Assembly (NCBI GenBank): GCA_964036295.1 | Contig: OZ038464.1 | Coordinates: 18,978,443-19,042,442, forward strand | DNA from: Plumapathes pennacea | Taxonomy: Eukaryota > Cnidaria > Anthozoa > Antipatharia > Myriopathidae | DNA: 64,000 bases | Direction: 5' to 3' | Part shown: positions 9,960 to 50,900 of the stretch, one piece after another | How the letters are laid out: each line of letters opens with the position of its first letter | Position numbering within the stretch: the first letter of the stretch is position 1 | Notes under the pieces: model-generated | The model's input: the letters and a program-made list of their open reading frames with translations, nothing else | Told to the model about the DNA's origin: nothing | Databases searched by the model: none | Made by a program: the position numbers and the translations under genes

Positions 9960-10735
9960 TCTTGTTGATACAAGTAAAGCGTCAGAAAATCTGGCTTTTG
10001 TTTGGGATCAAAATTTCACTCTGCTGTGCATTTATGTGCATTTATGTTGTTGTTGCGACATTCTGGCTCGGTGCCATGAAGGTCAAACAATCAGTGGAAC
10101 AGATGGCGTTATTATTTGAAAATTGGGAAATGGCTGAGGAAAAAGTGACCGTTGGTAGATCTCGCTTCGCTCAGTTTTATTGTATTCCCACAAATGTTTA
10201 TGTGAAAGAAAACCGAAGTCCTGCAAGACGAAGTCGTGAGCCAAGCCACGTACCCTTGAATAACCTTTCACGCATTTTGAACAAGAGTAGAAAAAACAGG
10301 CGACTAATACAAGAATACATTTCAAAGAATGTCCCAAAGTCGTCAAAAGTTCATGATTATACCCGAGCTTACGTACTTCACAATGCTAATGCGTTCCGAG
10401 AACGTGCATGTAAACAACATGTAAACAATAAAAAGCCACAGATGGAAATGGAAAGAGAAAATTAGGATCAATAAACCATCGCTGCGAGAAAGCTAGAAGC
10501 TCAAAAAGAAGATTGCCAAAAGTAACCGAGGTGCTAAGATACGTTTGTATTTTAAAATGTGTTAAAAAAACAGGCATTGCAAGATCAGACGTACTCAGAG
10601 ATCAAAATCACAGAACCAAGTACAATGGGTTTTCTCTGTCAAGGGATATAGAAAAAAATTCCGGTCCTTCAGTTGTTGATCCAAACAAAACGATCATCGG
10701 TTGGCTTTCTGGATGCACGGAAGCCATACTTTAAG
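9960..10735 (+). mobile_element. Decayed element remnant with 2A-like motif
   Basis: Two successive open frames lie here: 9,962-10,465 (basic, Ser/Arg/Lys-rich in its second half) and 10,513-10,734. The second contains DIEKNSGPS at 10,645-10,668, one change from the ribosome-skipping 2A consensus D(V/I)ExNPGP, because the Pro before Gly is Ser. 2A-like motifs are known near the start of coding regions in some non-LTR and other invertebrate elements. The motif and its in-frame surroundings are seen directly. The mobile-element assignment is inference. The frame breaks and lost Pro suggest decay. Confidence 0.3.
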
Positions 10736-18634: not shown

Positions 18635-20074
18635 CTATCCACAGCACAAACAGCCTGCCTTTCCGTCCTTATCCTTCTTCTTGCTCTTACTGTCGTCTGC
18701 GCACCAAGCAAAACATGGGCACATGTCCATGATGAACTTCTTGAAGCAGACGTAACAAATCGCCATGATAATCAAGATTACGTAGAATACCAATCCAATG
18801 CTCCAGATTACATCCGCAGCTCCTCCGACGCCCGCCTTCATTGATGGAGCGACTTTGACCAAGTGGAATTGGACCACCCCCATCCCCGGACATAGAATCA
18901 TTACCATGTATATCACTGCAGCGGGGGCAGCAATAAAGAACCTCAGCGGATAACAGCTCCAGCAGAATGGGTTCCCTACCCACATGTACAGAGGAAGGAG
19001 CCCTGGAGTAGGAAAGCGAACCGGTGGAGAAGAGGGAGTTAGGATGGACACAAGGGGCAGGTGTGGAGGGAGTATATATATATAATTGATTATCATGATT
19101 ATTTAATGTAATTGTTGCTAAAAAGCCCCTTAGGGGAGCATCAACAAAGATATGTATGTAGGGAGGGAGGTGTAAACAGAGAAAGACTGACATGTACATA
19201 CAAAAACAAAGACATTGAGCAGAGAGACAAATACAGAAAGAGACAGAGGGACAGAGAGAGAGACCGTGGCTTTACGGTGGCTTGACTTTTAATATGGATT
19301 TGAGAGTACTAAAAATTATTTCTGCAAGTCCCCAAATGAAAATTATTGCCATAGAAAACAAAACAAAACAAAACTTAACCCTTTCATACCTTTGTATATA
19401 CTTGAAAAAGCAACTGTGGATATCTTCAAACCCAACCACATTGAGCTTCTCTGCACCGCTAGATTCTTTACCCCATCCTCTGTGAGGGAGCACTCCCAGC
19501 AATTCGTCGGATTAAAATACATCACACACAGCTCTACAGCAATGCACGTGGAAGGGATATCGTGCACAATCGACTCTATCAACATGAACACAGAGTGAAT
19601 AGAAATGATGTTTTGATAATATTTTTGGTCATCATCGATTTCTTGCTCAAAGTCGGGATTCACGCAGTAATGGCACAAATTCGGAAGAAGTGTGCACAGG
19701 TGCGTGATGTAAATCGCTCCGCCAATGCCTGCGATTAACAGCACAACCCATTCAAAAATCTCCATCGGTTTTAAGTTCTTATCGAGGTCGGCCAGACTGA
19801 AATTCCCGCTTCTATTGCAATATATTTGAGTTTCTAAAGAGTTGCTCTTAGTCCCGTTTCCGCCTCCGGTGTCAGCAAGCATGTCGTCACACCGCTTGTT
19901 GGCAATAAAAACATCGAAGAATATTCCAACATCCACGCCAAGGTTCATCGCTTGGAGTATCGCGTAGACCACAAACTGGGTGATGTACATCGCCCTAGTG
20001 CTCATGTATCGGCAGCAGATCTTGCACATGGCACCACAGCAGCTCATGATTGCAGCACAACAACGATCCGCCAT
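18635..20074 (-). CDS. Unrecognised six-TM membrane protein, copy A
   Basis: Two exons, 20,074-19,390 and 19,002-18,635, join in phase (AAA G|GTATGA; CTCCAG|GGC) to give 350 residues. The start follows an A-rich leader (AAAATGG). The N-terminus has seven Cys in its first 21 residues. Hydrophobic stretches lie near residues 29-57, 107-132, 152-185 and 208-228, with two more encoded by exon 2. The first loop carries sequons NGT, NRS and NFS, so it is probably extracellular. The C-terminus is Lys-rich and ends GCLCCG, suggesting palmitoylation at both cytosolic ends. Conserved with copy B: ESIVHDIP, NCWEC, PLYMWVGNPFCW. I do not recognise the family. The acidic residue in a helix followed by DIP recalls XK-related proteins only loosely. 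It lies 2.3 kb from copy B on the same strand, so tandem duplication is likely. Confidence 0.8.
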
Positions 20075-22342
20075 TTTTGTTTCTTTGATAATTTAGTATC
20101 CAAGTCTACTGATCAGGCTGGGTCCGCCACTGTTTACTAATCAAACTGACCTCTTACGAAGTTTAACAGCTCGGCCTTTAAAGTGATTTGATTGTCAGCT
20201 AATTTGTGAAGCATTAGAAACATCAGTATCGCACAACAGGCGACTGTGGAGTCAAGGGATGCTGAACATTCACTTGCACAAGACTCCTCGGGAATATACT
20301 TCGCTCTGTTGTCAAACGAATCAGAAAAGGTCGCCAAGTTACGCGCGTTTTCTGTGGTCAAAGTCACTCTCGCCGATAATCGATCGCCACTTTAAAGGTG
20401 CGACTCTTCTCAGCTGTCGTCTAATCCTGCAATCTTGTATCCAAAAGCGGAGGTGAAACGAGCTGCCTGTCCTTCCAAGTTCTCAATTACGCGACAAAGG
20501 GTTTCAACAAAACGTCCTCTAAACGGGCTCTCGATCGTTTTCTTGTCGGTTGATGTCGGGTCGAGGGAACAGTTTCCGCGACGTGCAGAGTTCTCACTAA
20601 AATAACTTCCTCTCGCCGATCAAATATGTCGGCTATTCAGGGACACAGCTTCGACAATCTAAATATACACACTCCAGTGTATTTGCTCTTTTGTCTTGGC
20701 CAGAGGATTGCAAACAATTTGCATACAGTACTATGAGACGCCCACAAATCTGACCCATTAGAGCGAATAATTTATGACGCGCAGTGACGTGTGTCCCACT
20801 ATCGATCTTTTGACTGACTGCGTTACAGCACTTGATCAGTTTGTGCTGATGAATTTATGTCACTTGCAAAGAATTATTGTCCGTTTATGTACGTTTAAAA
20901 CATCGGCATTTGATCCTTCTCCCTCTTACCCATCTCCTTCTCACTCCATCCCTTCAATTCCAACGTTAACTGACAACATCCAAGCAAATTACTGTCGTTT
21001 TATTCACTTACAGTTCTTCGTAGACTGAAACAATAAGTCTCTGCACAACTGTCGCTTTTTTACACAACTGACAATGAAAGACACTCAATAACGCATGCTC
21101 AGTAGCCATGTATGCCTCCGCCAGTCATAACAGATAAAGCAAGTTAGTATGATATATATGCTATCCGTGAATCTTGACTCGAGAATACATTTCTTTAACA
21201 TGTTTCCTATACATGATCTTTTACATGTTTCTTTTACATTTCTTTAACATGTTTCCCTGCCAAAATTGAAGCCAAGAACCCCACAACACTAATACAAGAT
21301 CATTCACATCTGAATCAAATGCTAACAACACACATTGCATGTTATGCACATATGTCAATTCGTTTGCAAACATATCATATCACTGTTTCAAATTATGCTG
21401 AATTTAATAAGCTGTTGAAATCGAACTATTTTGGAAATTGATGATACTTTGTAACATTATAGATCTCTTTTTTATTCACGCGTTTACCATGTGGCCGGAT
21501 TCAATAAGACTTTCAGCATATGCTTAAATTGATTTGTCAATAAATCTGTGAACTAACTATAAAAATAAATAATACAAAATAAACCTTGCCCTAAAAAGGA
21601 CCATGTTGGTTCAGTGCCTTAAATTATTATAATTAATGGAATATGGTATATTATATACGTAAAACAAATTAAGTTATTAATTTAAAAAAATCATACGTGT
21701 TCTAACACATAGCAGTTATGTTCAAAGCTCGATTAAGTTAGCCCCAGGATAACAAAATTCTTTCTCTCTACCTCTTGATAAAACAAACTGTGGAATTTTG
21801 ATCAAAGACGAACTGAAAAACATATCGATGAAGTGTTTCTGTGGAGGAAAATGATAACTTGCCCCTAATGATGATAAGTTTTTATGTACCGTAATCCAGA
21901 GACTACTGGTAAGTGCCGCTATATACTAAACTCCTTAATGCCAAACAGTGATTAAGGTCAATGTTCTCCTTTCATTTGATAAGCAACTGTGAGAAGTATA
22001 GTGTGGAGAACTGGGCAGCTGATCTGTTTCTAGGAACATATTTTGTTAGCATCAAACTTCTCCAGCTATAACTCTCGCGTCGTCTTTTCATAACGTCAGG
22101 GGAATTTGGTTCTTGATCACTGGGCATTAAACCTTTAACTCCTGATGGTGATAAATTCTCTGTTTACTTTCTCAACAGATTCTCAATAGATGTCATCCAG
22201 TAAGGAGAAGTTGCCACCTGACAACCTTCGCAAACACAATTTGACATAGCTATCAATTCTCACAACATCACTCATACAGTTTCTTTGTATGTAGTTGGGA
22301 GAATTAGTGAACGATAAGCTCAGGAGTTAAAGGATGAAGGAG
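20075..22342. other. Intergenic region between membrane-protein paralogues
   Basis: No gene is seen. The region upstream of copy A is expected to hold its promoter, but I recognise no definite element. The stretch near 21,718-21,790 (GTTCAAAGCTCGATTAAGTTAG, then CAGGATAAC) resembles the GGGCCC-family end. The stretch near 22,130-22,320 (repeated TTAACTCCTGA, TTCTC, AGTTGGGAGAATTAGTGA) resembles interspersed coral-type repeat sequence also seen in BBS2 intron 2. Confidence 0.45.
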
Positions 22343-24172
22343 TTAACACAAACAGCCACTTTTCTCGCCTTCTTTTTCTCCTTCCTTCTTCTTCTTCTTG
22401 CACTGACAACTGCAGAACAGGCACTTGCCACACCAATACCAGTAACAGAAGTAAATCATGAACACGATGATATAGAACATCAGGCCGAACGTCCAGATCG
22501 TGTCCGAGATGGTCCCCATTTCCCCCTTCATAGCCGGTGCCGCGATAAAGAGCCTGTTGATGGCCACTCCCATGGCAGGGCACAGGGTAAGGACCACGAA
22601 AAGGAGCCCCGCTGGCATCACTACCAAGATTCGCAGCGGGTAGCAAGCCCAGCAGAAAGGGTTCCCGATCCAGGAGTACAGGGGAAGGATCCCTGGAGAT
22701 AAAGTGAATAAAATTGGTACGTTGTTTGTCTCTCATTTATTTTTTAATTGTCTCCGTTTCTGTTTCTTTGTCTCTGTCTTTTTGTTTCTGTCTCCTTCTT
22801 GCTCGGTACGTAGTCGGCAAGAGCTCGGCACTGAATTGTTCGGTATGTAGTCGGTATGAGCTCGGTAACGTGGTCGATAATGAACTGACTCGGTATGTGG
22901 TCGGCAATCGTATCCGTATAAATACCGACCGTACTTAATCACAACTACCGTCTATGTCTCTCTTACACATATACACGCATATGACTTGAATAAATCAAAG
23001 TGAAACAAATAACAGGTAAAGGGCTGCATTTTAGCCGATACCTTTATAGGCGCTAACCAAAGCAATGGAGCCCAACAGCAGCCCAAGCCACAGCTCACAA
23101 TTGGGCAGGGCCGTGGGAGGAGGCATGTCGCCAGGTGCTCCCACACAGTCCCAGCAGTTAACGCCCCCGATGCCCCACATCTGGGCGCACATCTCGACAG
23201 CCAGGCAAGCGACCGGGATATCGTGCACCAGGGTCTCGGTGTACAGGAAGACCGTGTGGGTGCGAAGGATCTTCTGGTAGTATGGAGAGGCTTCCTGCAC
23301 GTATACAGATAAACATAAACATAAACATAAACATAAACATAAACATAAACATTAACATTAACATTAACATCAACATCAGCAACAACTCGGATTCACAGAG
23401 AACTATGAAGAGTGGACTATAGTCGTATACACATTAATGAACTATCGAATTGTCTGATTGGTTACAGCTCATTATAGACTTTGCGACACAGGCCCGGCTT
23501 TTCAAAGGGTTAGGACCAGATTAAGATAATCATGGGTTTCTTGTCCCGTAACTTTCTTGGAATGGGCTGAGCTACATCAGCATACTTGATTAAAATCCTG
23601 CAGTTCATTGGGCAACAGAATAAGAAAAAAAGTTTGGTCGAGCATCAAACACTACTAAAGTGCGCCTGACGTTTGCTAACAACAAGAAACAGACTTACCT
23701 CTATCATGTTCTCGAAGTTTGGATCTTTCCAGTGCCTGCAAGCGTTTGGGAACAGCACAGTGATGTGCGTCAAGTAGATGGCCCCAGAGAGACAGATAAA
23801 GAAGAAGAAAAATCCCTCCAACAGCTTCAGAGTCTCAGCCTGGCTGTTCAAGAGCGACTGCGTAGCGTTTGGGGTCGTGCTGCAGTACAGCTTGGTGATA
23901 TTCGTTTCGTTGTTGAGCGGTACCAGTTCCTCCGTCGCGAGTCTGTGACAACGTTGGTATGTTTCGGCCGTCTCGAGGAACACGCCAACGTTTGTGCCGA
24001 TGTTGAAGCCTTGAAATGCGGCGTACAGAAAAATCTGGATGAAGAAACCCGCCCCGGGCGAGACAGCATTGCAGAAACAGCGACACATCGCCTTGCACGT
24101 CTTCGCCAGGCATTTTCCCAGGCCTTTGCACAGAAGGCCGAGGCACTTGCCAATGCAGTTGCATAAACACAT
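22343..24172 (-). CDS. Unrecognised six-TM membrane protein, copy B
   Basis: Three exons, 24,172-23,699, 23,294-23,042 and 22,692-22,343, join in phase to 358 residues. The first 32 residues hold eight Cys (MCLCNCIGKC...). A hydrophobic segment follows, then a probable extracellular loop with sequons NET, NIT and NAT and two Cys that align with those of copy A. The later segments carry TLVHDIPVACLAVEMC, VNCWDC and PLYSWIGNPFCWACYPLR, matching copy A position for position. The tail is Lys/Glu-rich and ends SGCLC. Copy B has an extra intron (23,295-23,698), which interrupts the region that copy A encodes in one exon. The shared second splice (K-G, phase 1) shows common descent. Function unknown. 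A multi-pass plasma-membrane protein anchored by lipidated Cys clusters is my inference. Confidence 0.8.
22800..22930. repeat. Degenerate ~20/36-bp tandem repeat
   Basis: Repeated GCTCGGTA(C/T)GTAGTCGG(C/T)A-like words, at least five times, lie inside the second intron of membrane-protein copy B. The repeats explain the GTAC/GTCGG periodicity. Confidence 0.65.
23306..23372. repeat. (ATAAAC)n / (ATTAAC)n hexamer microsatellite
   Basis: About eight copies of ACATAA-type hexamers grade into ACATTA and ACATCA hexamers. It begins about 12 bp upstream of the exon 2 acceptor of membrane-protein copy B, where the minus strand reads (TTTATG)n. That strand is T-rich and may serve as, or disturb, the polypyrimidine tract. 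Confidence 0.9.
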
Positions 24173-26510
24173 TTTGGCAAGTTATGCTCTACGACCACAA
24201 CTGGTTTCGAACACTTGTATGGAATTCAGTTGTCTTCAACAGCCTTGTCTCTCGCCTCTGGTGCTCAAATAAGCTCAGCTTTTGTGAAACTATTGAGCAG
24301 AGCTCTGGAAGACAAAATATTGCGATCTAATAGTTGGTAGGATAGTTCATTAGAGTTCTCCTTGGGGGTTTCACGACTGCGACAACCTAATACGGGTAGG
24401 ACTGCAGGTAGAATTTGGTAAAACCCAAACACACTTGCTTTAACTTCAACTCCCTGAGATGAAAGAGTAAACAGACATATTGTTAGCTCTTTCTATAAGG
24501 TTTTTCAAATGTTTCAGCATATATTTCACTGACGAATTACAAATATAACAATTTAGAATTAAAGCTGAATTAACGCTAATATGAAGATGATTAATGTACC
24601 TCGAATTATAAATTCTAAAAAACAATAACACAGTTTGTTACAAAAATATATATATAAATACATCGGCCGGTTTTTGCATTGAAAGGTCAAGGCTGTATTG
24701 TATAACTGAACAAGAAACGAGAGATCTGTGCTCTACTAATCTTTGTTAATCTGCAAAATGTTTCAGCGGTTATCGAGCCGCTCAGATAAAAATTGTTCGA
24801 GTGATTTCAAATTTGTACAATTTCATGATTTTTCAATTTCATCATTGCAGATGAAAACCAGTTTTTTGATACTCGACGGTCAGACTTCGTTATTTGCACC
24901 AATCTCCAGATTTCTAGGAATTTTACTGCAGGCCAAGCTGGGAGCATCAGTTCCTACGAGTAATGCAGATTCAGTTATATCATTCCATTTATTTTCATTC
25001 CGTTATTTCCATTCCAGTAACATCCCTTTTTTGAGTACTTTTGAGGGAACTATAAAATTATGTGTATCATACTGATCATTTGCAAGAAAATAAAAGTGTC
25101 GTCTTAAAATTAAGAGTGATACTCCCACAATTCACCTTTACCACCAAAATTAGAATTTTATTTCAAATCGTTGTATTAAAGAGAATATTTAGACTTTCCT
25201 GTTCTTCATACAGCCAACATTAGGCAAACTGTTTGTGGCCTTTACACTTTTTTGTTATTGATGTCTCTGAATAAACTAAATTTTAAATTAATCTCGATAA
25301 AATCAACTCAGTTCGATAAATAGGTCGAAGGGGCTTCGCTGAACTGTCCTACTTTTCTTCAATGTTTAAAATAATCAAGGTGGGAAGTAGGACTGCAGAA
25401 TTTTCTGTTCGACAAGACACATCTGCTAATTATATTCGATGTTTGAAGCGGCTCTCGATCTTCGTAATCTTGAAAGTTCGTTTCCGCCTATCGACGAGTC
25501 TTCGAGCCACGAAAGCAGATTTTGTGAAATAATATTCCGAATTGCGTGCAAGTTCGACCTCGATGTCATAAAAAAAATCAGACTTTTTCTTCTTGTGATC
25601 CATTTACAGCGAGAATCCTCAAAGCCTAACAGTAAGTTTCAATCTGCGAATCTTTTTCACAATTAGAATTAAACTAAATATTATATATGGACTGTAAGAC
25701 ATTCAGAATTTAAACATACTAACCTAAACTTTGCTGCGAACCTCCCAGATGTAGATCCGATCACCGAAGATGGATTTCCTCTTCCAATATGGCGTCGTTT
25801 GACAGATCACAGCTTTCAAAGTATTCGTTGCCGATTTGCGAGAACGCCTCTGATTCGTGGATTTATCGACAAACAGTAGGGTCATACACACCAGGTGTTT
25901 TCACAGTTCCATTTATCGACCGAAAGTTGAATAAAATTTACATAAAACAGGAAAACCTAAGCCGAAAGTGATAGTGAAATAAACCTGACCGAAGAGTTTA
26001 ATTTAAAAATCTTATTTCGATCGGGTTAGACGATTCTCTTCGCGAATACTCATAAATAATCATACGATTGGCAAACGAAAAATAAACATCTCTTGATCGG
26101 CCGATCGCATAAATTTATTTTCACGAAGCGCCAACGGAAATAAATTTGACGTGGGGCTGTCATTGCTTTATTACAGAAATAAACATTTAATAAGATTGTT
26201 TTATGTTTTTGTATAATGTGTCTGTTCTTGAAAGCACGACGTTTACCACCTGACGGGAATTTGGTCGGGATTTCTTTACTATAAAATAGTTTGTGTTTTA
26301 GGGGGAGGGGAGGGGGTTAATACGCGCCAAGAAAGAAAACATTGATAATATAATATCCATGTACTGTGAACAAAATGAGGGTAAAAATCACCTAACTATT
26401 AATAAAAAACACTAATGCCACCTCTCATCCACCACAGATGTCTGTAATTTTTTCTTAACTTTGTAAAGCCTGGTTTTCACAAGAGACACAAGCACTTTAT
26501 TAAGCGCAAA
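24173..26510. other. Intergenic, AT-rich, nothing recognised
   Basis: Short open frames (for example 24,743-25,075 and 25,439-25,666) have no recognisable similarity and no convincing splice partners. The first few hundred bases should contain the promoter of membrane-protein copy B on the minus strand, but no definite element was identified. A G-rich run lies at 26,300-26,320. Confidence 0.45.
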
Positions 26511-26518: not shown

Positions 26519-26700
26519 ATGCGTTGGTGCGTCAGTAAAAACGATCGACGCACGCGCAAGAGATATGCGTCTAGTGAAAACGATCGACGCGGCAATTACG
26601 CCTCATGTGACAACAATCGACGCACGCGCAAGAGATACCTGCCAAGTGAAAACGATCGACGCAAACGCAAGAGTTACGCGTCATGTAAATACCATCTTAT
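26519..26700. repeat. Four-copy 33-39-bp tandem repeat
   Basis: The words AAAACGATCGACGC, ACGCGCAAGAGATA and GCGTCA(A/T)GTGA repeat with starts near 26,541, 26,580, 26,613 and 26,652. The array is CpG-rich compared with its surroundings and ends about 12 bp before the decayed cGAS-like fragment. An 69-codon frame through it is an artefact of the periodicity. Confidence 0.8.
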
Positions 26701-26711
26701 CTCAAAAAACA

Positions 26712-27164
26712 GGTTGAGTGCATTATGAAGGAACTAGCAATGGACCGTGACGTGTTATGGGAGCAAGGGCCCGCTGTGAGCTTTGAATACCCATCGGGCA
26801 CCCGAATTTTCCCTTCATAAGCGTCGACTTGGCCATCGCTATTGATCTCATAAACTAGCCGATAGTCGCCCGACAGCTTACCGCGGAGTTCACGAAAGCA
26901 AAGGCTCAGCTCGTTCCCAAGCCCCGACAACAGACCGCTGCTGTGGCAGATATCGTTCTCTCAGGTGGAAAAGGACTGGGCTCCATCCATGCTCCATCCG
27001 TGCCTCGTTTTCAGGAGTTCATCGAGCGTCTATTAAAGAACGTGAAAGAGGGGTGGCTACCAAGTTACTTTGTTCCCGCGTACAATCTGCTGGAAAATAA
27101 ACCGGGTCTCGTGGCCGCCAAAGATGGCATTTTGAACGCTATGAGAAACCTACCTGGGGCATGA
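26712..27164 (+). pseudogene. Decayed 3' fragment of a Mab-21/cGAS-like gene
   Basis: In shifting frames the sequence matches the downstream intact gene: 'LWEQGPAVSFEYPSG' near 26,753-26,800, then 'VDLAIAI' about 30 bp later after an in-frame TAA, then 'LLWQISFSQVEKDW' near 26,938-26,985, then 'RFQEFIERLL', 'YFVPAYNLLE' to a TGA at 27,162. At least two frameshifts and stops separate these blocks. The 5' part with the GS and ExD catalytic motifs is absent. Residual similarity to the intact gene 1.8 kb downstream suggests a tandem duplicate that lost its front and decayed. The open frame 26,943-27,164 alone is too short to be a functional enzyme. Confidence 0.8.
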
Positions 27165-27412: not shown

Positions 27413-27644
27413 GGGGTCAATTCAATAAACATTTACACGTGTATTTTACAAGCTGGACTATTATTCCAACACCACTAAACGGACTCTAATCTAGCGAAGT
27501 CTGTACAATATTACAGATACAAGTCCCCAGTGCACACCCACAACAGCATTTGGCCATTGTACTGGATTAAAGTGTGTTTTAACGTGTGGCGAAATTGGTC
27601 CGACTTGTAAAATACACTTGTAAATGCTTTATTGAATTGGCCCC
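27413..27644. mobile_element. MITE-like inverted-repeat element, ~232 bp
   Basis: The left end GGGGTCAATTCAATAAACAT, continuing TTACACGTGTATTTTACAAG, is matched by the reverse complement of the right end with a few changes. Arms are about 45 bp and the interior is unrelated, non-coding sequence. Confidence 0.75.
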
Positions 27645-27999: not shown

Positions 28000-28720
28000 A
28001 TGCTCTGTTAAATTCTTGTTAAATTCTCTGTTAAATTCAATAAACATTTAGTTAAAAATGGAGGATATACCGGTATTTTCTGTTTAACGCTAGAGGAATC
28101 ACGCTCTGTCGAATTTCTGAGATCGCAACTTAAAAGTCTGTGGTGGATATACCGGTTGAAAATTGATCATGCTCTGTCAAACTCCTGAGATCGTATATAG
28201 TAACTTAAAAGTGGAGGATACGCCAGTCGCCTAAGTCTATTGCTCGCAGAGTCATGCTCTATATGAAATTCTGTAGGTTGTAACTCAACAGTGGACGGTA
28301 CACCGGTTGAAGTCTCCCGCTCTGTCAAAATTCTGAGATCATAAAGAAAATTACATGTGGAGGATCTACCGGTCGTCTGTGTTAAACGCTTGAAGAATCA
28401 TGCTCTATCCAATTTCTGAATTCTTAGCTTAACAGTGGGGGATAAACCGGTTGAGTGTCCTGCTCTGTCAACATTCTGAGATCATAAAATAACTTAAATG
28501 TGGAGGATATACCGGTCGCCTATGTTAAACGCTTGAAGACCCATGCTCTGTCAAATTCCTGATATCGTAACTTAACAGTGCGGGATAAACCAGTTAAGGC
28601 CTTATGCTCTGTCAAACTATTGATATCGTAAAGTAACTTAAAAGTGGAGAATATGCCGGTCAAAGCTTCGCGCTCTGTCAAATTACATCACATGACACGT
28701 GCGGAGGATGGTAAAGTAGA
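28000..28720. repeat. Degenerate satellite-like array with ~141-bp higher-order period
   Basis: About ten diverged units contain CATGCTCTGTCAAATTCTGA, (G)ATCGTAACTTAA and GTGGAGGATATACCGGT. Longer (~82 bp) and shorter (~60 bp) units alternate in the middle of the array: starts at 28,318, 28,399, 28,459 and 28,541 give a repeat of repeats of about 141 bp. The array ends about 270 bp before the start codon of the intact cGAS-like gene. Confidence 0.8.
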
Positions 28721-28989: not shown

Positions 28990-30636
28990 ATGATTGCACA
29001 GCTATTCCTGAAGACTGCAGGGCTCCTCCTGATCCTCTCACTGAACGGAAATGCAATTCCACACAAAGATCGTCTCCTCTCACTCGAGGACTGGGGGTCT
29101 GGCTTCGAAGACACCCCGGATGAAGGCACAGAATCCTCAGCAGAATCAGACTACGAATTCGACTACGAATCCTACGAAACCCACACGTCGGACGTGATTT
29201 GGCCAGGTTTGGCATCGTTTTGCTTTTCAGTATTATACACTCAGTGTAACCTCCCTAAGAGACCACCTCTCTTAGTCCCGATGGGTTCCTCAAATTACCA
29301 CTAGTGCAACTTCTGGTGTTCAACCATCTCTGACTCTGTATATACCGAACAACCGGTATGCGACCACCCAAAACGTAGTACTACAGAAGACTCTTTATTT
29401 TTACGATTGTTATTCAGTTGTTATTATTGTTATTCGTTGGGAAAGCTGTGGATTCACTTCATATCCGCCGCTCCCTTATACAGGAAGTAAAGAGTACTAT
29501 TAGCCACTGCATGTAAGTGTGAAAGTGGCTTATATGGGTGCATACATGCAGTACAAAACTGACACTCCTTCCTTTTGCCTTCTTAATTTCCAGACGAGGA
29601 TAGATTAAGAAACTACCTCAACAGAACTTTCCACAACATAACCATCAACAATGCGACCAGGGAAGCAGTGGAAACCGATCTCTTATGTCGCCTCGGTAAA
29701 ATCCTTCCCAAGGTCGCTGCACTCGACGAGTACCGTTGCTTCGATTTCAGGCTAGAGTTTAAAGGTTCGTCCTATGAGGGTCTCAGAATTGGCCTTCCAG
29801 ATGAGTACGACTATGGCCTGGTCAATGATAGCTGGTCAGAACTTGTAGCCCGTCAGTTGTCTACACCTTACGTACCTGGCTTTGGGTATGCATTCGACAA
29901 CACAACTTACCCTTGCTTGGACCGTTTTAAGAATGGCAGCATACTCGATCCAGAGAAAGTGAAAGCTCATCTCAAAGCATTGGTAAAGCAGGCGATGGAT
30001 GAACTGCACATAGATTACGAAGTAATATGGGACCAAGGACCCGCTGTGAGCTTCACGTACAAGTCCAACGTCCCTACAGTCTACAATGTGGACGTCGACT
30101 TGGCCATCGGCATTAAACTCAAGATGTGGCCCCAGGAAGCCCGAGACCTTCCCCAAAGACTGAAAGACATCGGCACCCAACTCGTCCCTAAATCGTTGGC
30201 CTCTGATCCAATGCTGTGGCAGATATCTTTCTCCCAGATCGAGTTACAGATGATGAGAGACATCGGACAGAAGCCAGGCTGGCGGAAGCAGGTGCTGATG
30301 TTGGCCAAATACTGCAAAGGAATAACCAATGGGACCTGGGACCCTCTACAGTCGTATCATCTGAAGATGGTGTTCTTGAACATGACCCAAGTTCATCCAA
30401 ACGACGAGGATTGGACATTCGCTAAACTCCCCGCTCGTTTTCAGGAACTGATTATGCGCTTACTAGGTCACGTGAGAGACAAACATTTTTATAGTTACTT
30501 CGTGCCAGAGTTGGACCTCTTCCGCCTTTTGAATGAAACCCAGCTTGCCAGGGCCGAGGCGGGTATCAAAAGCTTTCTGTTAAACCTACAGAACATCGCG
30601 GATGCTACTTACGACCAAGTAGGTATCCGGATCTGA
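28990..30636 (+). CDS. Mab-21/cGAS-like nucleotidyltransferase, apparently secreted
   Basis: Exons 28,990-29,206 and 29,594-30,636 join in phase to 419 residues. Residues 1-23 form a hydrophobic signal peptide (MIAQLFLKTAGLLLILSLNG, then NA|IP), followed by an acidic Ser/Glu/Asp/Tyr linker to about residue 72. The catalytic module follows: GSSYEGLRIGLPDEYD at 130-145 carries the GS motif and both metal acids, E143 and D145, spaced as in cGAS. The third acid is D239 in NVDVDLAI. Further family blocks are GPAVSF, WQISFSQIE, YHLKMVF and SYFVPELDLF. No zinc-thumb insertion is visible. At least nine N-X-S/T sequons lie between residues 80 and 395. cGLRs make cyclic dinucleotides in the cytosol on sensing nucleic acid. 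Entry into the secretory route, as in the ITPRIP branch, is inferred from sequence. Activity is not shown. Confidence 0.85.
29240..29360. repeat. Interspersed repeat fragment in the cGAS-like gene's intron
   Basis: CCTCCCTAAGAGACCACCTC, then CTCTTAGTCCCGATGGGT and ACCGGTATGCGACCACCC, show repeated (A/G)CGACCAC and CTCTTAG words typical of a short interspersed repeat. It lies wholly in the single intron. Confidence 0.45.
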
Positions 30637-30639: not shown

Positions 30640-30800
30640 TATCAACCGAAACATGTGTAAGACGGTCAAATAAGAGTGATTTATTAAATTAACTTGTGTA
30701 ACAAGGTAAAATAAAGTTATCCAGTAACTTGTAAGAACAAGGTCAAACAAAGTGATGTAATAACTTATAAGAACGAATAAAGTGATGTACACATCTGACG
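30640..30800 (+). terminator. 3' UTR with polyadenylation signals and ~36-bp tandem repeat
   Basis: AATAAA occurs at 30,710-30,715 and 30,776-30,781, downstream of the cGAS-like gene's stop. The region is built of three degenerate units carrying TAACTTGTAAGAACAAGGTC-type sequence followed by AAA(G)TGATGTA, so the AATAAA signals are partly products of the repeat. Confidence 0.6.
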
Positions 30801-34800: not shown

Positions 34801-37800
34801 TGACTTGGGTTCGGCATACCCTTCAGGACAAGGAATGTAAAGCGTGAATCTGCAAAAAAGAAAAAGAAAAGAAAAGAGTAAAGAGAGAAATCGATTAATA
34901 TTCACATCCAACGTAAAGCTGGCTCGGGAGGAGTGTGACTCGGGTCCCCAATTGAATTCCAGTGATCAGCAGGAAAATTTGAATGAAAAGAAAACCAGAG
35001 TACCAACGTAACGTGAATTTTATAAGGACTTACTTACCTGGGTAGTTGTCTTGTCAGCTCAAACACGTGGAAATGTTGACTGAGAGGAAAGGAAAGCAGC
35101 AATAAGAACACGAAATCAATGATCGCAGTTGTATTTGACTCGTACACTGAGGTCGTGTTCTACTCGGACCAACCGTTTCAACCTAAACCGGTTTTTGGTT
35201 GACGTGGTTGAAGTGTACCAATAGAACACATTTCAACCGTTTTCGGTTAAATAAGTTGAAACCTGGTGCCATCGTTTTCAACAGTTTTAACAATAGAAGA
35301 CGACCTAGTTCTCAGGGCCCAGTTTTTCGAAAGTCGATTAAGCTAATCCAGGATTAACGAAATTATTTCTCTCCTCCTCCCTCCCAATAAACAGCAAGGT
35401 TTTGTGTCGAAGATGGATTAGAAAGCTTGTTCCAGCTTAAAACGTCAGCAAGAAAGTCGTTGTGGACGAAATGTTCACGTTTTCAGGCTTATAAATGACA
35501 AGAAAGTTTAGACTTAATCCAAGCTTAGCCTAATCGTGCTTTGAGAAATCGGGCCCAGATGAACTGGCATTCCTACGGCATCGGTACAGTACCTTGACTT
35601 CTGACCAACGAACGACTTAATATGCAGATCCACTGGAACATCTTTAGGAGGAAATATCGGGATACTCAGGGATCCCTTCAGATTCTGTTGTGACGGGTGA
35701 ATGACATGACTCTCGCCCTCAAACAGCCCCTCAGCAAAAATCATGACAGCGCGAATGATCGTCTCGTTGGTGGTGGTGACCGATAGCTCCACGTGTGGCT
35801 GAACTTGTTCGCTGCCCGGATTTACAGACAGGGATGTCTGTAGCTGTGTGCTCGCAGGAATCAACCCCATCTGAGACGTGTCTGCATCTTGGCCTCCTGC
35901 TTTGGCAACCTGTGTTTAATTCAGCGTATAACAGTGATCAACTTCAATTTCAGTGTCTACAGCATCAAACAGCAGATGTTGTTCTTTTCACACGTATCGC
36001 GTAACTTATTTGAAAAAATAAAAATAAATAAAATAAATAAATAAAAAAAAAGAGAAGGTCTACGAGCCCATCGGGCACAAAACGATAATTTCTTGCTAGT
36101 CCGATGTCAATTTATACTAGCCCTGAAAATCGTGCTAGCAGATGTTTCAAGCCAAATGATATTCTACAGAATGGTTTATAGAAATACCCTGGAGTTCTCC
36201 TCGTAATTCCTGATCTCCAGCAACAGATTCTGTTTCCTCAGTGCTAGGTCCCTGACAGTATCCTGCTCCACGTTAACGTCCATCAGATTGCCTCGCAGTT
36301 CGGGTGGTGCTGGCAAGTAACCTCGCACTGATGGATTAATAGAAAATATCTCAAATTCTCCCTACTCACCTGAACAAAATGTATGGCTCAAAAAAATTTC
36401 TTCTGCCTCACTAGCCATGGACTCGTATGTCACGCAAGTAGAGGAAGCCCAGATTCAGTGAACTCTAGCTCTAAAGATAGTACTCTTCTCATTGTCGTAA
36501 TCAACCCCAGATACTGTTCGTCGTTTCGCGTGTATCAGTCGGGGGGCGGGGTAGGGAAAAGAGTCTGGGAACGAGGATGCTCTTACTCACGGTCGGACGA
36601 CGGAAGCCAAGGACGCGACAATGGTTTTGTTCTCTCGCGTTCGGCTTCGCCTCACATTCGTTCTTAGTCACTTAGGCCTCGGACAGAGAGCGGGAGGAGA
36701 TCTGGGAGCCACGGTAACTTACCGGTAGTCATTCAATTTTCAACTTTCGAAAAATGAGGAAATTGAGGAAAAGAGAACGTTAGCCCATCGGCCAATAAAT
36801 TGTTGTTTCTAGCTAGCCCAGTGTAAAATCACAGTGCGCTAGCAAAAATTTCGAGCCGTAGGAGTGAGCAGGAGAATTTATGTTCTGATCAACTTGAGCC
36901 CAGCAAGAGCAGGTTTATGATACTGTAAGTACATACCTTCCCCATCCACTGAACAGCAGATGAGTTCTGTCTTTCCGTCCAAGCGGTAATCTCCCTCCAG
37001 AAGTCCCGCCACAGCAGAAGAAAAGTTGTCTTTGAAGATTACTTCACCCGTCCTGTCACTTCTGGCATCGATCTAAGAAAAGGGTTATTGGAGATGATGT
37101 GTAACTGAAAATAATTTGCACCAGCACTTTACTGACTGCTTTCACAAACAATCATCCAGAACAATGAGCGCTAGTCTCTAGTTTGAGATATTCACTTTAT
37201 TATTGGGCTGAAGAATATAGGTCTCTGATGTTATCTATAAAGGTATAGTGTGATTTTGGTTAATATTTGAAAAATGCCTCCGTCGGAAACGAGAAAAAAA
37301 ACTTTTGACAGTTTCATTCAAAAATCCTAAACTAACTATTTTCTGATACTCTGCAGTTAAGTGAACTACAATGCCATGTTCACAATTTTCAATATTTTTT
37401 TCACAGAGGATATATTCAGTAGTTCACATTTATTTTAATAACAGCAACAGACTAACCTTGCCATTAGACCAGCCGGTGATGAGCTCAGGGACGCCGTCAC
37501 TGTCCAAATCAAAACTGTGAATGACTATTGCTTGATTCTTGGACTGTACAAAAAGAAAATTGATCATGAACACATGCACGGCGAGGCCTGGTTATTTTAT
37601 CATTCCCATTTACGGTTTAGTAACATTTTGGAGCCATTCCCGACAAGTAAAATCTAAGAAGGCAACCCTATCAGCAATCGGATAGGGAGATAGGTAATAA
37701 AGACACTAGTGCACCTTAATTCTCCAGTATCTTGCCGTCTTGTCATACACCCCAACAGTTCCATTAGCCAGTGCATAACCAAATCTAGAACCATGCAATG

Positions 37801-40800
37801 GATACAGGCATGTCACAGCCTAAGGAATAAAATATAGAATATATCTAACAAATCATTTCCTGCATTTCACAAGTTATAACTTTCATCTGGAGGGGCTGGA
37901 GCATCCTCACATCAGCCAGAATGCACTGTTATTAGAAACCCTGGTTAGACTATCAAAGTATGTACTACATGTATGTAGTTCAGTGTGGAGAAAATGGCAG
38001 GCAATCTCTTGCTAGGTTCATGTTGGTCAGACTATCAATTCTCCTAATGCCACTAGTCAGGTTTTCTTTCTATCAAATGCCATATTCTCCTTATTGTTTG
38101 ATATACCTCTGATGAGAAATTAAGAAATACAAAATCTTAGCTGATCACTCTCAGTCAGGAGCTACAGTAGCTGAACAGTTGAGGGTTAAATTTACCTCAG
38201 TTTCTGTCATTTCTGCTATTATTTCGTCTTCCTTGAACACTCTGATATCAAAGTCTTCAGAACCAACCAAAAGCTGTTGAAACAATATTAATAATAATGC
38301 CTGTAAAATACTGAAAAAGATCTGAGTTATGAGCACTGGGCTTATACAACTTGTAAGGGGTTTTGAGGGGGCTATAACCAAGGGGAGTTATAACTAGGGT
38401 AAAAAATGTGTATAAACAGAAAACTATGTTTAGGCAGGTAGCACTAAGTCTTAACCCTTTCACTCCCAAGTTAAAAATGCAGATTCTCCCAACCTTTTAA
38501 GAGTAACATGTATAAATAATTGATAGTTTAATCAGCTATCATCTGAGTAAGCTGTGAAATGCCAAGTTCTCCTTGTTGTAATGTATATTTTTAGTGAAAA
38601 ATGGAAGGAGAAAATTGAAGTTGATCACTCTAACTGTCTTGTTTGTGTCCATGTTGCCATTCTTCTTGAGCATAAAGCAATTTATGATACGTGATAATGT
38701 ACCTGAGAATGGGGAAAAGAGGGGGAGGAGGGCTTGAAACCACAATCCTGGTCAAAAGTATGTGGGACACTCTGAAAAAAAGCTATTTTTCAACATTATT
38801 CTCTTTTCAGCAACGAAAGCGCCCCCTTTTCAGAAAGTTAACCCTCCCCCCTTTCCCCCATACAATGTTGCATAAAGGGAGTGCACTTTGAGCACACTCA
38901 GTCAACATTGTAAGGGGGGAGGGGGTGGGAAGAGGGAAAGTGTCATAATTTTTAGATAAAAGGCTAGGTGTCCCACGACTTTTGGCCAGGATTGAAGCTT
39001 TGTTGGTATATGTCATAAAATGTTTGGATCATCATAAATCAAGTACATGTGCAAGTGAGCCATTCTTGATAAGAACACAATCATTACAGTAATGGTTACC
39101 ATACCTCCATTTGTCCATCAGCATTGAAGTCACTCAAAGCCAACGAACACACATTATCCCCAGTGACCTAAAGAATTTGTTGAGCAGTATGATTATTACA
39201 AACTTTATACCCTTTAGTATTCTGATATTCTTCCCGAATGGACGTAAAATTGAGACTTGTATAAAGTACTCACAGTCCAAAATTCATCTTCGCCTTCAAA
39301 ATTGAAACCTTGAATGGAGCAGTTTCCACCAACAACTGCAAGAGGATCCTCAAAGCTCCCAACTCTGCCAACAACGATGGAATTGACACCGTCAGCAACC
39401 TGAGAGAACAACAACAAAATGGTGTGAAGAACTACCGATAACCAAAAGTAAGCTTTTGTATTGATTATAGAATGGTTTATAGATGACTATCCAAAGCGAT
39501 TACAGTGTGATTGCTTTTTTGTCAGATTATCAATATTATCCTAACACTACTCATACATTTTGTTAAAGGCAGGTTGGGAGAGTTGGCCTTAGTGATCTCT
39601 TGCTTGGATTCAAGCTGCTATCAATTCTCCTGAACCAAACTACTCAGACATACACTTTGTTATAAAGAGCATGTTGTAAGAATTAGGTGACCTCTTGCAT
39701 AGGTTCAAGCTGATAAGACTATCAGTTCTCCTAACACTACTCATACATTTTGTTAAAGGCAGGTTGGGAGAGTTGGCCTTAGTGATCTCTTGCTTGGATT
39801 CAAGCTGCTATCAATTCTCCTGAACCAAACTACTCAGACATACACTTTGTTATAAAGAGCATGTTGTGAGAATTAGGTGACCTCTTGCATAGGTTCAAGC
39901 TGATAAGACTATCAGTTCTCCTAACACTACTTATACATTTTGTCCAGGACAAGTTGTGAAAAAAATTAGGGCCTACAGTATATAAATATTATATCTTGGG
40001 ACTGAAAAGGGATAATAAACTACAAATGCACACATCTTGGTTGGATTCTTACATCTTTGTAAAATAAATCAGAGTTCTTTTCCACATCATACGCCAGGAT
40101 ATTGGTTGGAGTACCAATGAGAAGTGTATCACGTCCAGAGGTATTCAGCTGACCTGCAGCCACAGCAGAAACTTGCTGATTGATGTTCAAGATACTGATG
40201 TCACTATCACTGCTGGTTATGGCACGTCCTCCTTGCAGGGAAGTGGTGTGTGGATTATGAATGAAAACCTAGGGAATACAGTGTAAGTATTACCTAAACC
40301 CTGATGTCAAAAGCCAACCCAAATCAACTTAAGATTGCAATAGAACCTGTGTATGCATGGATTTACGATGGGGTCCAAAGGGATTGACAAGTCAGCTTGC
40401 AAGTCATAAGAAAGTAATTCAATGCCATATCAACTTGCAAATGGAATTTGCCTTTCATGTAAAAGTTCATTGAAACCAAAGTCAAGCCAAATATTCCCAA
40501 GTGGGTGTATTGAGCTGACTTGTAAGACAATTTGGCCATGGCCTTGGAAACTGCTACATTTCTGAACACAATCATCTCATCAGAACTGAAATATGGTTTA
40601 TGGTTACAAGGACACCCAAACATTTAATTACAATAAATTATATTATTTACACTAGGTACAGTGTATAATACACTCTATAAATTTTATAAGATACCCTTTA
40701 CTTTTGAATATTTTATGACCATAATAGAAAAAGGTATGGCCACAATAAAAAATATAAAGATAATAATCTATATCTGAAATAATATTATATTACACATTTT

Positions 40801-44900: not shown

Positions 44901-47900
44901 AATGCATACGGAACCTATCTAAAGTTTCAAGGGATGTTTCAAAATGCATACATGCACAGACACAGATGTGTACCTGAAAATGCAATAATTATTCAGAATT
45001 TATATGAAAGAACAATTGCAGTATAAAATCTGTCATGGTTACTTGCAGGAAGATGATAAGGTGGTTGAGTTGGTCCATAAATATGGCCCAAAGAAGTGGT
45101 CACTCATTGCTCAACAGCTTAAAGGTCGCATTGGAAAACAGTGCAGAGAAAGGTATTTTGTTTTATGGTTTCTTTTCAAAATGGTGACAGTCAACTCCCT
45201 CATAAGACACCCCTCTAACACGGACACTTCTCTAAGGTGGACACCTGGTATAAGCAGTCCCTGTCATTTTTTCAGCATTTACTGTAATTTAACTCTGACA
45301 GACACCTAAAATTAATGGATTGTAGGAGCTGGTCCTCAGGGTGTCCGTCTTGGAGAGAGTAACCTGTACTTGTGAGTCAGAAAGTTGATGACTTCACTAC
45401 CCACAGATATGTATGTTTTATAGCAATGAGCAGCATTTTGTTGGGATTTTCATATTTCAGTGCACTACAGCCTTCACTCTGATTGCTTGCTTATCCTACA
45501 GTTTTAAAATTTCATTCTTTTCAGGTGGCACAATCATCTGAACCCTCACATCAACAAAGAGGCATGGACAGAGGAGGAAGATCAAGTCATTTATGATGCT
45601 CACCGAAGGATGGGAAACAAATGGGCAGAAATTGCAAAACTAATTCCTGGCAGGTTTGTCCATGGATTTGCATTTTTGCAGGAAACTCAGCTCCAGCAGG
45701 GCAGGATTGACACTTTGTACCCAGCCAAGTTTGAAGCAGAGACATAATAGTGTGGCTTTTGTATGGCTGGTTAATCCCCAAAAGATATTAGAGATGCTGT
45801 ACACATGGCTGCAAAACCCCGCACTAAAAAGTCTATGAATCTCATCTCCAATATCTTTTTGAGATTTCATCCTATGCATTGTTAAAAATTTCCAATAGAA
45901 TATATTTGTACCTTTTTCAAAATCACCAAGTATGAATAAGGTGTATGCTGTCAGTCTGTGGCCCAAGTTTACTGAAAACATGCGATCTTTACTTTTCTTA
46001 AAATATTCCAGGACAGATAATGCAATCAAGAACCACTGGAATTCCACCATGCGAAGAAAAGTGGAAAGCGCTGGATATGAGCATTACAGACGCTCCAGAT
46101 ATCATCCTATGGTGAGCACCATCATACTTCACTTAGCTTTGTCATATATTGCTCACTGTAGACCACTACAGGTAGTCTGATGTGTCTGTAGATCTGCAGA
46201 TGTCTATAAGGCTACTGTACATGTTTGCATGCTAAAATATTGTCATAAACTTATCCATGATGTAGGACTTCGCAAATAATATTGAGCTCTAAGTTGCACA
46301 TTTTTCCCATTTATAGTAGTGGAAATGCCATGAAAACTTCTCTGCATACCTAAAAGTCAACAAGTCAGCATCAATTTTCCGATGATTCAGTCATGGTGTG
46401 TTGCAGATAGATGTGAAATAACATTGTAATCTCCTATTTTTTTCTCAAGAATGACAGGAAAGGCAATGGCAGGGTGTCCTCACTCAAGAAAGGTACAGTG
46501 CTATTGAATTAATTAGTTTGTTGTGCATGTGGGGGTGGGTTGGTAATAAGGGGATTTAACCTGTTAGCCACCCCCTCCCTGCCAGGAAATAAGTATGCCT
46601 TACTAAATGGTTCCAAAGAAAACTGTACATAAAACCAAAATGTGTGCTCAGAAATATTGCTAAGACATGCAGTAGAGATACTCAAACACACAGTTGGCAC
46701 ACCAGAATGACAGACGGTATGCATGAAGATAGACAGACAGAAAGGAGGGAAGAAGCTGGCCTCTCAACTAAGGAAAAAAAATCAATCATTAAACAATGGG
46801 TCTTGCAGAGAGAAGAGACATTGATGACTCTGGGTACATAACACACTCATCATCTGATATGCCAGCACCAGCCATTAGCTCCCAGTCGTCGTCAGTGGCG
46901 AGAACTGCAAGTGCATCTACTGCCTGGAATGGACAAAATTCACAGCTTACAAACATCAAACCCAAGAGGGAGTCTGGGTTTTCTTCAAATATTACCCCGC
47001 AAAAGACAGTCAGCACAACACTGGCAAGGAATGATCCCATACTGTCACCATTCAGGACATACATTTATTCAGATTCATTACTGGAGACTGACCCATCAAC
47101 TTGGGGTGATGTCAGCACCTTTGAGAAGGGTAACAACAAGAATTCTCCTCTCTCCAAACTGGCCTCTCCAGGAACAACAGGTATGATATATGATAAATGA
47201 ACTATGAGTACATAAAATTTTAAATTGCATTCAATAAAATCTGATGCCCAAGTATCTTTTTTACAATAACACGTCAGTTTCTCGCTTTGTGATTGGCTAA
47301 TTTTTATTATCAATAAGAGGACAGACACATCAAATCGAGTGCTGACGACAGTGATTTGGACGAAGAAAGTGAATTTAGCTTCAATTTTACCTCAGTTCTT
47401 GCAAAAGCGACATTCGGCATTTGAAGTAGAGAACCAGAAGTGTTCAGAGGCGAATTTCCTTGAGCTTTGTCTTGAAATTGTCGAGAAAACTGCTGCAGAA
47501 AAGCAGCTAGTTTCATTTCTTTCCAACTTCTTTGACAAAATTTTATTTTGCACGTGTGAAATGCTCATGTCAAACTGTCACTTTTTGGCCATTGAAATGC
47601 CTTGAATTTCAACCTCAACCAATTAGAAAGTGGAAAAGTTGTTGACAACATTTTGGTCAAATCAAACAAAATCCAGTTTTCTTGCATGTTTTCCCCGCGT
47701 CGTCACTTTAGTTTTGTTATTGTAAAAAACAAATTGACGTCAGTTTTTTATGTGTCTTTCCTCTTATTGATTATGAAACGCGTCATAACATTGTCAAAAA
47801 GTTGCGGATCCACTCGGCAAAGCGCCTCGTGGATCCACAACTTTTTGACAATGTTATGACACGTTTCATGATCAATAAGAGAACAGACACAAAAAACTGA

Positions 47901-50900
47901 CGTCAATTTGTTAAATTTATTATAGTTTGAACACTTGCCATTAGCTATACAGTGATACTTTCACATTTCAATGGGTTTGATACTGGAGTGGTACCTTTTT
48001 CATTTCTCATGGGCATGAGTGGTCAGTTTTTAATGACACTGAGTGCGTGGGAAATTGTTTTGTCACATATTTATTTAAATCCTTGTGCTTTTAGGTTATA
48101 GATTTGACGGAAACTCCTTGGCAAGCATTCAGACAGGGGAAGGGTGAGTTTCCTTTGAGGTCTGTCAGAAAGATTATCCTAAATTTTATAGCCTGGCTGT
48201 ATGGTATTGTCACAGTTTATATCCAGTACATTCTCTGCCATTTTTATTGTCACAAAGGATCATTTTCTCTTTCAGTCTCTCACCCAAGATATATCAGTCA
48301 TACAGTATAGTTTGGAGAACAACTTTTCACAGCTTCTTCACTAGATGAAAGTTGTTTTACTACATACTGTTTCAACACATGTATTTATCAGGGTTCGTAC
48401 GGGTCATGGAAAACCTGAAAAAGTCATGGAATTTTTGAATTTCATTATCCAGGCCTTGAAAGTCATGGAATTTAAGTGTAGGTCATGGAAAGTCATGGAA
48501 AATGATGTTCATTGTACGAAATGAATTTCTTGTGAATGAAAAAAGCGAAAATGAGTCGGGAAACGGGCAGCTTTTGTTAATTTTCGAAAACAACTGGTCA
48601 ACTTTAGGTTGTGGAAAACTTTAAACGGCCGTGGAAAAGGTCATGGAAATTCATGGAATTTCCCAAAAGAGTATGATCCCTGTTTATTCTCACTGCACCA
48701 CCTACACTGTACTGTATATGTTTTATTGTTGAATTGTTGAATTGTTGGGAGAGGTTGTATTACTGACTGATATTGTTTTATCTTTCAGACCTTTAATACC
48801 AATCACTTCACCGGTTATTCAGAACAGATTCAGTACGCCACCCACAATTCTCAGAAGAGGTCGAAAGAGAAGAGTATCCTTTGCTAACAGGCATTTAAAT
48901 GTGAAATATGTTGACAAAGAAACAAGTCCAGAAAAGTATCTAACAGTGTAAGCAACTCTTTTAAAAGAAGGTGAAATGAAAGTTCATCCTCAGTGCTCAA
49001 CATTAACAGTTGCCCACTATGCCTGGGGCAACCAAAAATTTTGGTCGGGCAGGAAAGTTCAGGGCCAGGCAACCAGAAATTATAAAACTTTCTATTGCTT
49101 GACGTCAATTTACAGGTCAAAGGGCAACCCACTTAAAACCTTAATGTCAAACACTGATCTGCTTAGTTGAAAAAAACTAAACTAACTTACTGTACCAGTA
49201 CTGTGTTTATGCCTTAACACCGTGTTCCCTCAGGCACCCGAGGTGGACAACTCTTCTGTAAACCATGAGTCAAAGTGTGAGAGCCCCAAAGGCAACACAC
49301 CAATTAAGTCATTACCATTTTCACCATCGCAGTTTCTAAATTCACCAGTTGGCACAAATAAGCTGCTGACATCAACGCCGGCCAGTTCAAAAGGTGTGAG
49401 CACACAAAATACCACCCTGAATACTCCTGGTTCAAAAGAAATAGCCAGCGCCGAAGACCCATTCCGCACACCCAGGATCAGACGAAATCTGTTGAGCATG
49501 TCTCCGCGAACCCCAACTCCATTCAAGAATGCATTAAAAGTGCTCAATGACACAAAACTAGCGCATGTGAGTTTGGTTTTGCTGATTCTCTATTGTAATG
49601 TGTATGCTTGTCAGGCCACTTGCTGGCCCTCTCAACCAAAGTCTTGTTTTCAGGGCTCCCACAAATAGAGAGCAATATTGACAATCCATTTCCATTAGAC
49701 TCATTTGATAGGAATAGTTCTGTGCTACTAATACTGTAACCTTTGGCTGTTTTGTCATCAAAATTCACCCTTGCTTTTCACAACAATGAATATTGGATGA
49801 GAGGGTCCTTTAAGATGGGTTCTATAAAGTTTGTTATAATAAATTACTATGTGGTTTCTGATTGACTAAAAAAAAACGTTTTATATAACATGCGTTTCCA
49901 TGTCTTTGCACTCTTATATAAACATGTGGAATGTTGTGAGAACATGAGAAAAAGTTCAAATCACTTGCCAAAGAGTACAAAGACATGGAAATGCGTGTTA
50001 TATGGCAGTAAAGTCACTTCACTAATGGTCTAGCTACAGTGTAGTATGAGAGGGTCTACTTGAATACAGTTCATCCTTGCCCCTGACTTGTTTTTGCTTG
50101 TTTATCATTCCAGACACCAACATACTTGCAAGAAGATTTCAATGAAATCATAAAAAGAGAGGAAGAAGACAGCGGCATGAGCATTAGTAATTCTCACAAT
50201 GTGCGAACATCACTGGAGGAGAAGTACAGGAAAGTGGCTATAAGCCAAGATGCTGTCACTGCTGCACTTTACAATAATGTACAACCAAAGGACGGCAGCA
50301 ACCTGTCAGACGCTTCTGTTAATAATAATATTACCCTTACGGTAAGGAACAATGCTATTTTACTGGCTACTGGTTGTTGTTATTGTTGTTGTTTACCCCT
50401 TCTAATCTCCAGCTTCACTGCAAACAGTTATTGCAGTCAGCTACCTCTGAACACTCCTGAACTCATAGTACAAACTCTCTGAAAGTTTTGGGAGAAATTG
50501 TAGTGATGCATATTCTCCATGTTGAATATTGTATGATGTTAGTTCAGAAAGACATTATAGATCAAGACAAGCAAAGCCCAAATGGCACACTACTTTGGCA
50601 CTATAGAAGGATGATTCTATGTTTACATTATTTTGTTGTCACTGTGTTTGCTTTTTAGGAAGACTCTGGGATTGTGGAGACACCTTTGCTGAAGCCTTCT
50701 TCTCACGAGACATCGGTGGTGAATCCCAGGGATGTCTTTGGCAAACAGAGTGCCTTCGTTACTCCAAGTACACTGCCTTCTGAAGTGAATGGCGTAAGTC
50801 TCCTTGAAGTTAGTCAATACTTTAGGTGACCTTAGCCATAGGTGACATGTAGATTGTCAAAGTCTCATCTCTTTTTCATTGTAATGATTTCCTCTTTATT

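Follow-up and report, generated by a model that had tools for sequence, protein, structure and literature searches.

Enzymes of the cGAS family are treated as cytosolic, and extracellular cyclic dinucleotides are explained by their release from cells. We describe a gene of this fold family that appears to encode an exported protein. It lies in a stretch of 64,000 nucleotides (the window) from the anthozoan Plumapathes pennacea (assembly GCA_964036295.1, contig OZ038464.1, positions 18,978,443 to 19,042,442, forward strand). The predicted product has a Mab-21/cGAS-fold module with a near-complete active site. Its targeting to the secretory pathway is supported by separate lines of evidence in the sequence: a signal-like first exon, an excess of N-glycosylation motifs (sequons) in the second exon, a site resembling those for glycosaminoglycan attachment, and no further hydrophobic segment. 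If the protein is an active enzyme, an exported location is unusual for its kind.

The animal cGAS-like receptors (cGLRs) are among the closest described relatives. PMC9980059 reports 3,020 animal cGLRs, 87% of them without added signalling domains, and its main text makes no mention of secretion or extracellular location. PMC10732462 likewise makes no mention of secretion, a signal peptide or an extracellular location. Mab-21 proteins with an N-terminal signal have been proposed before: signal peptides and/or transmembrane (TM) segments were predicted in the vertebrate DANGER/Mab-21 proteins D1A-C, D2B and D3A, and secretion was suggested for some members (PMC1784063). The N-terminal targeting segment of DANGER proteins is described as an early-vertebrate gain, and a TM domain is predicted in ITPRIP. 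ITPRIP and the other vertebrate DANGER proteins resemble the coral product in joining a Mab-21 module to such a segment, a likeness drawn from their description. The coral product differs from ITPRIP in having no TM segment beyond the signal, as judged by hydropathy only. Poxins are degrading enzymes of a family distinct from Mab-21/cGAS. These cyclic GMP-AMP (cGAMP) nucleases include forms with signal peptides, putatively secreted, in insects and their viruses, and are a precedent for export of a cGAMP-pathway enzyme (PMC7688311). Among the open-licence PMC matches listed, a limited library, no title or abstract opening describes a Mab-21 protein that is exported and has its active site complete.

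Gene structure and family placement

The gene has two exons on the plus strand, with the following features.

28990-29206, +, exon 1, with the start ATG, the signal-like start and the acidic linker
28990..29055, +, predicted signal peptide, residues 1-22, MIAQLFLKTAGLLLILSLNGNA, cut at GNA/IP; highest hydropathy segment of the protein, in keeping with the -3/-1 rule
29056..29206, +, rest of exon 1, acidic linker (residues 23-72 and the first base of codon 73), with EDWGSGFED (including S36) and DYEFDYESYE
29207..29593, +, intron, CAG/GTTTGG ... TTTCCAG/A, placed by the listing of in-phase acceptors and the pyrimidine tract
29594..30636, +, exon 2, Mab-21 nucleotidyltransferase and helical domains (Pfam PF03281 7e-12, PF20266 1.5e-15); stop codon 30634-30636
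29620..30540, +, span of nine N-X-S/T sequons found by motif count: N82, N87, N92, N150, N175, N186, N318, N335, N386
29764..29811, +, first half of the active site: G130-S131, E143 and D145, aligned with human cGAS G212-S213, E225 and D227
30097..30099, +, codon of D241, the third catalytic acid (human cGAS D319), from the alignment and the VDLAI of a decayed paralogue in register
30710..30715, +, AATAAA polyadenylation-type signal, 74 bases past the stop codon

The gene model, fold family, active-site residues and sequon excess are established from the sequence. Joining the exons in phase 1, at a junction inferred from sequence, gives the 419-residue product named in the preliminary description of this DNA. 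The start ATG is the first in frame after an in-frame stop and has A at -3. Seven in-phase AG acceptors are listed between 29400 and 29760; four of them introduce no stop, and of these 29594 alone is preceded, on inspection, by a pyrimidine tract. An upstream exon of some kind is required, since exon 2 has no in-frame ATG before residue 207, which lies past GS, E143 and D145.

Exon 2 matches the Pfam families Mab-21 (PF03281, 46.3 bits) and Mab-21_C (PF20266, 57.6 bits), both above the curated cut-off of 24.1, so the module named in the preliminary description is confirmed. A phmmer search of solved structures finds 43 distinct sequences with E values no higher than 1. The best is 8gjy, 'cGAS-like receptor 1' (8.2e-18), followed by cGAS chains from 1.2e-9, MAB21L1 (2.1e-7) and MiD49 (0.0012); the same list includes 8gjw, an oyster cGLR (PMC12424679). 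Pairwise identity over the aligned segments is 33% with 8gjy and 27% with each of two cGAS chains (6edc and 7kxs). The alignment (A1) and the active-site table were built from these three of the 43 sequences, and 6edc is treated as human cGAS on the strength of its numbering, which agrees with the residues named in the literature.

The homology spans the nucleotidyltransferase core and the C-terminal helix bundle, as PMC9980059 asks of a cGLR. The same paper defines cGLRs by the motif h[QT]GS-X8-20-[DE]h[DE]h-X50-90-h[DE]h. A relaxed form of the motif is matched at 128-242. The strict form is not: K129 stands in place of Q/T, and the spacer is 93 residues against a maximum of 90 (91 if D239 is used). 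In the same test the strict form is also unmatched by the cGAS chain 7kxs and by 8gjy, and 8gjy misses the relaxed form too because H was left out of the hydrophobic set used. On its sequence, the gene product is a Mab-21-fold nucleotidyltransferase homologue near the cGLRs and not a proven cGLR; it is placed near them rather than among them because the strict published motif is unmatched. The label 'cGAS-like enzyme' given earlier has partial support only: catalysis is putative, the strict motif is unmatched, and the residue D239, discussed below, is not the right one. Profile searches with NCBIfam and PADLOC gave weak matches only (0.058 and 0.057). Searches for relatives with exon 2 or alignment A1 gave 1 and 39 pattern matches in viral contigs and 22 in genome contigs, none of them confirmed, in collections not expected to hold animal genes.

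Evidence for export

Residues 1-22 have a short hydrophobic core and a GNA/IP site. The N-terminus first noticed is indeed signal-like, but such starts are not rare and taken singly are weak evidence. By the same home-made test, 24 of the window's 424 ATGs followed by 35 or more open codons are signal-like, as are 8 of 114 ATGs with 72 open codons (this ATG included in both counts). Another ATG with 72 open codons, at 9898-10113 on the plus strand, has a strong signal-peptide-like start (MELFSMRVNLKVLCILLLCIILVDTSKA).

The sequons support secretion independently of the signal exon, because all nine lie in exon 2. Counting N-X-S/T where neither X nor the next residue is P, nine of the 16 Asn residues of the exon 2 module sit in sequons. 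Shuffled sequences have a mean of 1.29 and a maximum of 6, and none of 20,000 reaches nine. The module has 2.60 sequons per 100 residues, whereas the 68 remaining open reading frames (ORFs) of at least 100 aa in the window average 0.71. Within the aligned segments the coral protein has six (265 aa), 8gjy two (295 aa), 7kxs one (283 aa) and 6edc none (282 aa). The sequons had been described as at least nine spread through the catalytic module; the number nine is correct and far above chance, while N82, N87 and N92 precede the nucleotidyltransferase core.

The linker (residues 23-73) has an isoelectric point (pI) of 4.05, with 16 of 51 residues acidic, in agreement with its first description as acidic. 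Glycosaminoglycan attachment and tyrosine sulphation are both made in the Golgi. EDWGSGFED, with S36, resembles the consensus site for the former and DYEFDYESYE that for the latter; these sites fit export because both modifications belong to the Golgi. Of the 474 ORFs in the window that are 50 aa or longer, this is the only one with the tight acidic-GSG-acidic pattern, and 20,000 shuffles of the linker produced it 169 times. It is the only notable one of the three linker patterns.

Beyond the signal-like start there is no second hydrophobic segment by hydropathy only, with no 19-residue segment that starts after residue 30 exceeding a Kyte-Doolittle (KD) value of 0.84. The protein should therefore be soluble. 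No KDEL-type signal is present at the C-terminus (VGIRI).

Some of these results weigh against export. In addition to the frequency of signal-like starts, two of the 68 other ORFs (114 and 115 aa) are equally or more sequon-dense (3.51 and 2.61), and two linker patterns are weak, since a looser SG pattern occurs in 4,806 and the acidic-tyrosine cluster in 1,686 of 20,000 linker shuffles. The true first exon could be a different one, in which case the protein would be cytosolic and cGLR-like and the signal-like exon a chance ORF. In favor of this, the exon junction is predicted from sequence, the donor CAG/GTTTGG is only moderate, signal-like ATGs are frequent, and no matching first exon is found beside the decayed paralogue. 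The donors compatible in phase with the exon 1 frame are at 29071, 29206, 29245 and 29284, so there are three further GT in the same frame; by eye 29206 has the best consensus, and the same signal-like start is retained with any of the four. Exon 1 is also open and in phase, with a GC content of 0.52 against 0.41 in the intron (exon 2 has 0.48), its GSG motif is unique among the 474 ORFs, and the sequon excess of exon 2 does not depend on it. A wrong 5' end is very unlikely in our view.

MiD49/51 have an anchored N-terminus and a module that faces the cytosol. A similar uncleaved anchor, as in MiD49/51 or ITPRIP, would leave the coral module in the cytosol, and MiD49 is a weak phmmer match. 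However, 8gjy scores far above MiD49, the best hydrophobic 19-mer has a KD value of only 1.64 with K8 inside it, a small-residue cleavage site follows the hydrophobic stretch, and a cytosolic module would leave the sequon excess unexplained. We consider an anchor very improbable. Adding the two secreted readings weighed below, the protein is likely to be an exported glycoprotein.

Active site and possible function

Eleven of thirteen active-site positions are identical to human cGAS, including all three acids: S131, E143, D145, D241, S284, S286, E289, K311, S326, Y327 and K330. The zinc thumb of vertebrate cGAS is formed by H390/C396/C397/C404; none of the four ligands is present in the coral protein. 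Roles of the active-site residues of human cGAS, other than S213, S435 and the zinc ligands, follow PMC4897736. The GS motif at 130-131 and E143/D145 stand as first reported, with 13 residues from G to E in both proteins. The third acid had been given as D239, but D319 of human cGAS aligns with D241. In this register SVDLTLGIK of 8gjy lies opposite VDLAIGIK, the decayed paralogue reads ISVDLAIAID, and an ungapped DNA match runs through the D241 codon. Alignments A2 and A3 misplaced some paralogue fragments, and of these only the VDLAI register was used, backed by the ungapped DNA repeat. D239 as third catalytic acid is ruled out: it is two residues off, and the alignment with cGAS and 8gjy and the paralogue DNA match point to D241.

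The two changed positions, T211 to K129 and R376 to Q282, are both acceptor-base positions. The combination of an intact active site with secretory targeting proposed earlier is thus upheld for the targeting and for a near-complete site, and has to be qualified at these two positions. 8gjy is identical to human cGAS at the same eleven positions and also has K before GS; it has C at the R376 place, where the coral protein has Q, and differs in its lower sequon count. Human cGAS shares the fold family, GS/E/D/D and the donor-site residues E383, K414, S435, Y436 and K439. It differs in its zinc thumb, in T211 and R376, in pI (8.7, compared with 6.3 for the coral module), in having no sequons in the aligned segment where the coral protein has six, and in lacking the signal-like start.

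MAB21L1 and MAB21L2 share the Mab-21 fold and the donor-site residues with the coral protein, and PMC9980059 counts both among proteins with complete putative active sites. In MAB21L1, however, Q (Q169) occupies the D319 place, the R376/S378/S380 residues are missing and the counterpart of T211 is unassignable (PMC4897736). The coral protein keeps D241 and so is not of the MAB21L1 type at the third acid.

We infer export, glycosylation, catalysis, a substrate and a place of action from these features. The signal peptide would be cleaved and a soluble glycoprotein would enter the secretory pathway, with its Mab-21/cGAS-type module N-glycosylated. The acidic linker may carry sulphate or glycosaminoglycan, and the protein would then be exported. 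Since the active site is kept, the module most likely still binds nucleoside triphosphate (NTP) together with metal ions, and nucleotide transfer is probable. Its place of action would be the lumen of the secretory pathway or the extracellular space, with NTPs from lumenal transporters or leaking from damaged cells. That an exported protein binds NTP, with probable transfer outside the cytosol, is a little short of an even prospect. The more specific proposal is a cGAS-family nucleotidyltransferase that is catalytically active in either of these places and uses lumenal or leaked NTPs to make a nucleotide signal or to tag a partner that is exported too; it is at present rather unlikely.

Several points weigh against catalysis. 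Free NTP is scarce outside the cytosol. The product need not be cyclic, because the acceptor-base residues T211 and R376 are replaced by K129 and Q282. MAB21L1 retains the equivalents of Y436, E383, K414 and K439, yet no nucleotidyltransferase activity was seen in the study that describes it (PMC4897736); donor-site retention is for this reason not diagnostic. The main rival is a secreted pseudo-enzyme, in which the exported, glycosylated module is a nucleotide-, glycan- or protein-binding scaffold and the active-site residues are kept for binding or fold. The sequons and the linker fit it equally well, and the changed acceptor-base residues and the example of MAB21L1 speak for it. Shrimp Mab21 proteins are also reported to lack nucleic-acid sensing and cGAMP synthesis, with other ligands or products left possible by the authors (PMC12928593). 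On the other side, all three acids are retained in the coral protein, and the third is lost in MAB21L1. A pseudo-enzyme is a distinct possibility, although short of probable.

The coral module, with a pI of 6.22, lacks a basic character. It has no zinc thumb, and three sequons lie just ahead of the region expected by inspection to form the spine helix. Binding of double-stranded DNA in the manner of cGAS looks unlikely. The pI of the aligned segment is 8.7 in 6edc, 7.68 in 7kxs and 6.31 in 8gjy, and because of the last value it does not separate the coral protein from cGLRs.

If NTP binding and transfer outside the cytosol are correct, an exported member with a kept active site would be a second source of extracellular signals of the cyclic-dinucleotide type, or a new nucleotidyltransferase of the secretory pathway. 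Even as a pseudo-enzyme, the protein would be a case in which the fold has left the cytosol and still has all its catalytic acids.

Decayed paralogue and neighbouring sequences

The gene was duplicated at this locus, as a decayed tandem copy shows.

26689..27161, +, decayed tandem paralogue, fragments from the C-terminal half interrupted by stops and frameshifts (tblastn E 2e-9 and 3e-5; translation; DNA repeats D8 and D9)

One piece scores 22.3 bits against Mab-21_C, under the cut-off of 24.1. No exon-1-like sequence was found beside the paralogue, which thus offers no confirmation of the signal exon. The paralogue is preceded by a tandem array with a 39-base unit (26529-26683), and a minisatellite with a period of about 143 bases (28052-28661) lies shortly upstream of the gene. 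An inverted repeat at 27427-27494 and 27562-27629 has 68-base arms that are 74% complementary and 67 bases apart; it is possibly what is left of a small mobile element.

The neighbours given here come from Pfam searches of 15 other ORFs of the 474. Rfam and tRNA scans of the window gave nothing. The ORF stretches at 18638-20092 and 22346-24181 on the minus strand are alike by eye (PLYMWVGNPFCWSCYPLR, PLYSWIGNPFCWACYPLR), Cys-rich and hydrophobic, and are possibly a tandem pair of membrane-protein genes; the two ORFs scanned from them (19346-20092 and 23648-24181) have no Pfam match. A tandem repeat at 39539-39943 has 2.1 copies of 190 bases and appears to be a recent duplication, because the copies are 99% matching. 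An exon for the BBS2 GAE domain is found at 35517-35915 on the minus strand (Pfam 1.4e-29). Exons of a MYB gene lie at 44989-50479 on the plus strand, with a Myb DNA-binding domain (4.5e-13) and a C-myb C-terminal domain (2.7e-15), and there is a further weak C-myb piece at 50087-50479 (0.015). The BBS2-like and MYB-like flanking exons fit an animal genome.
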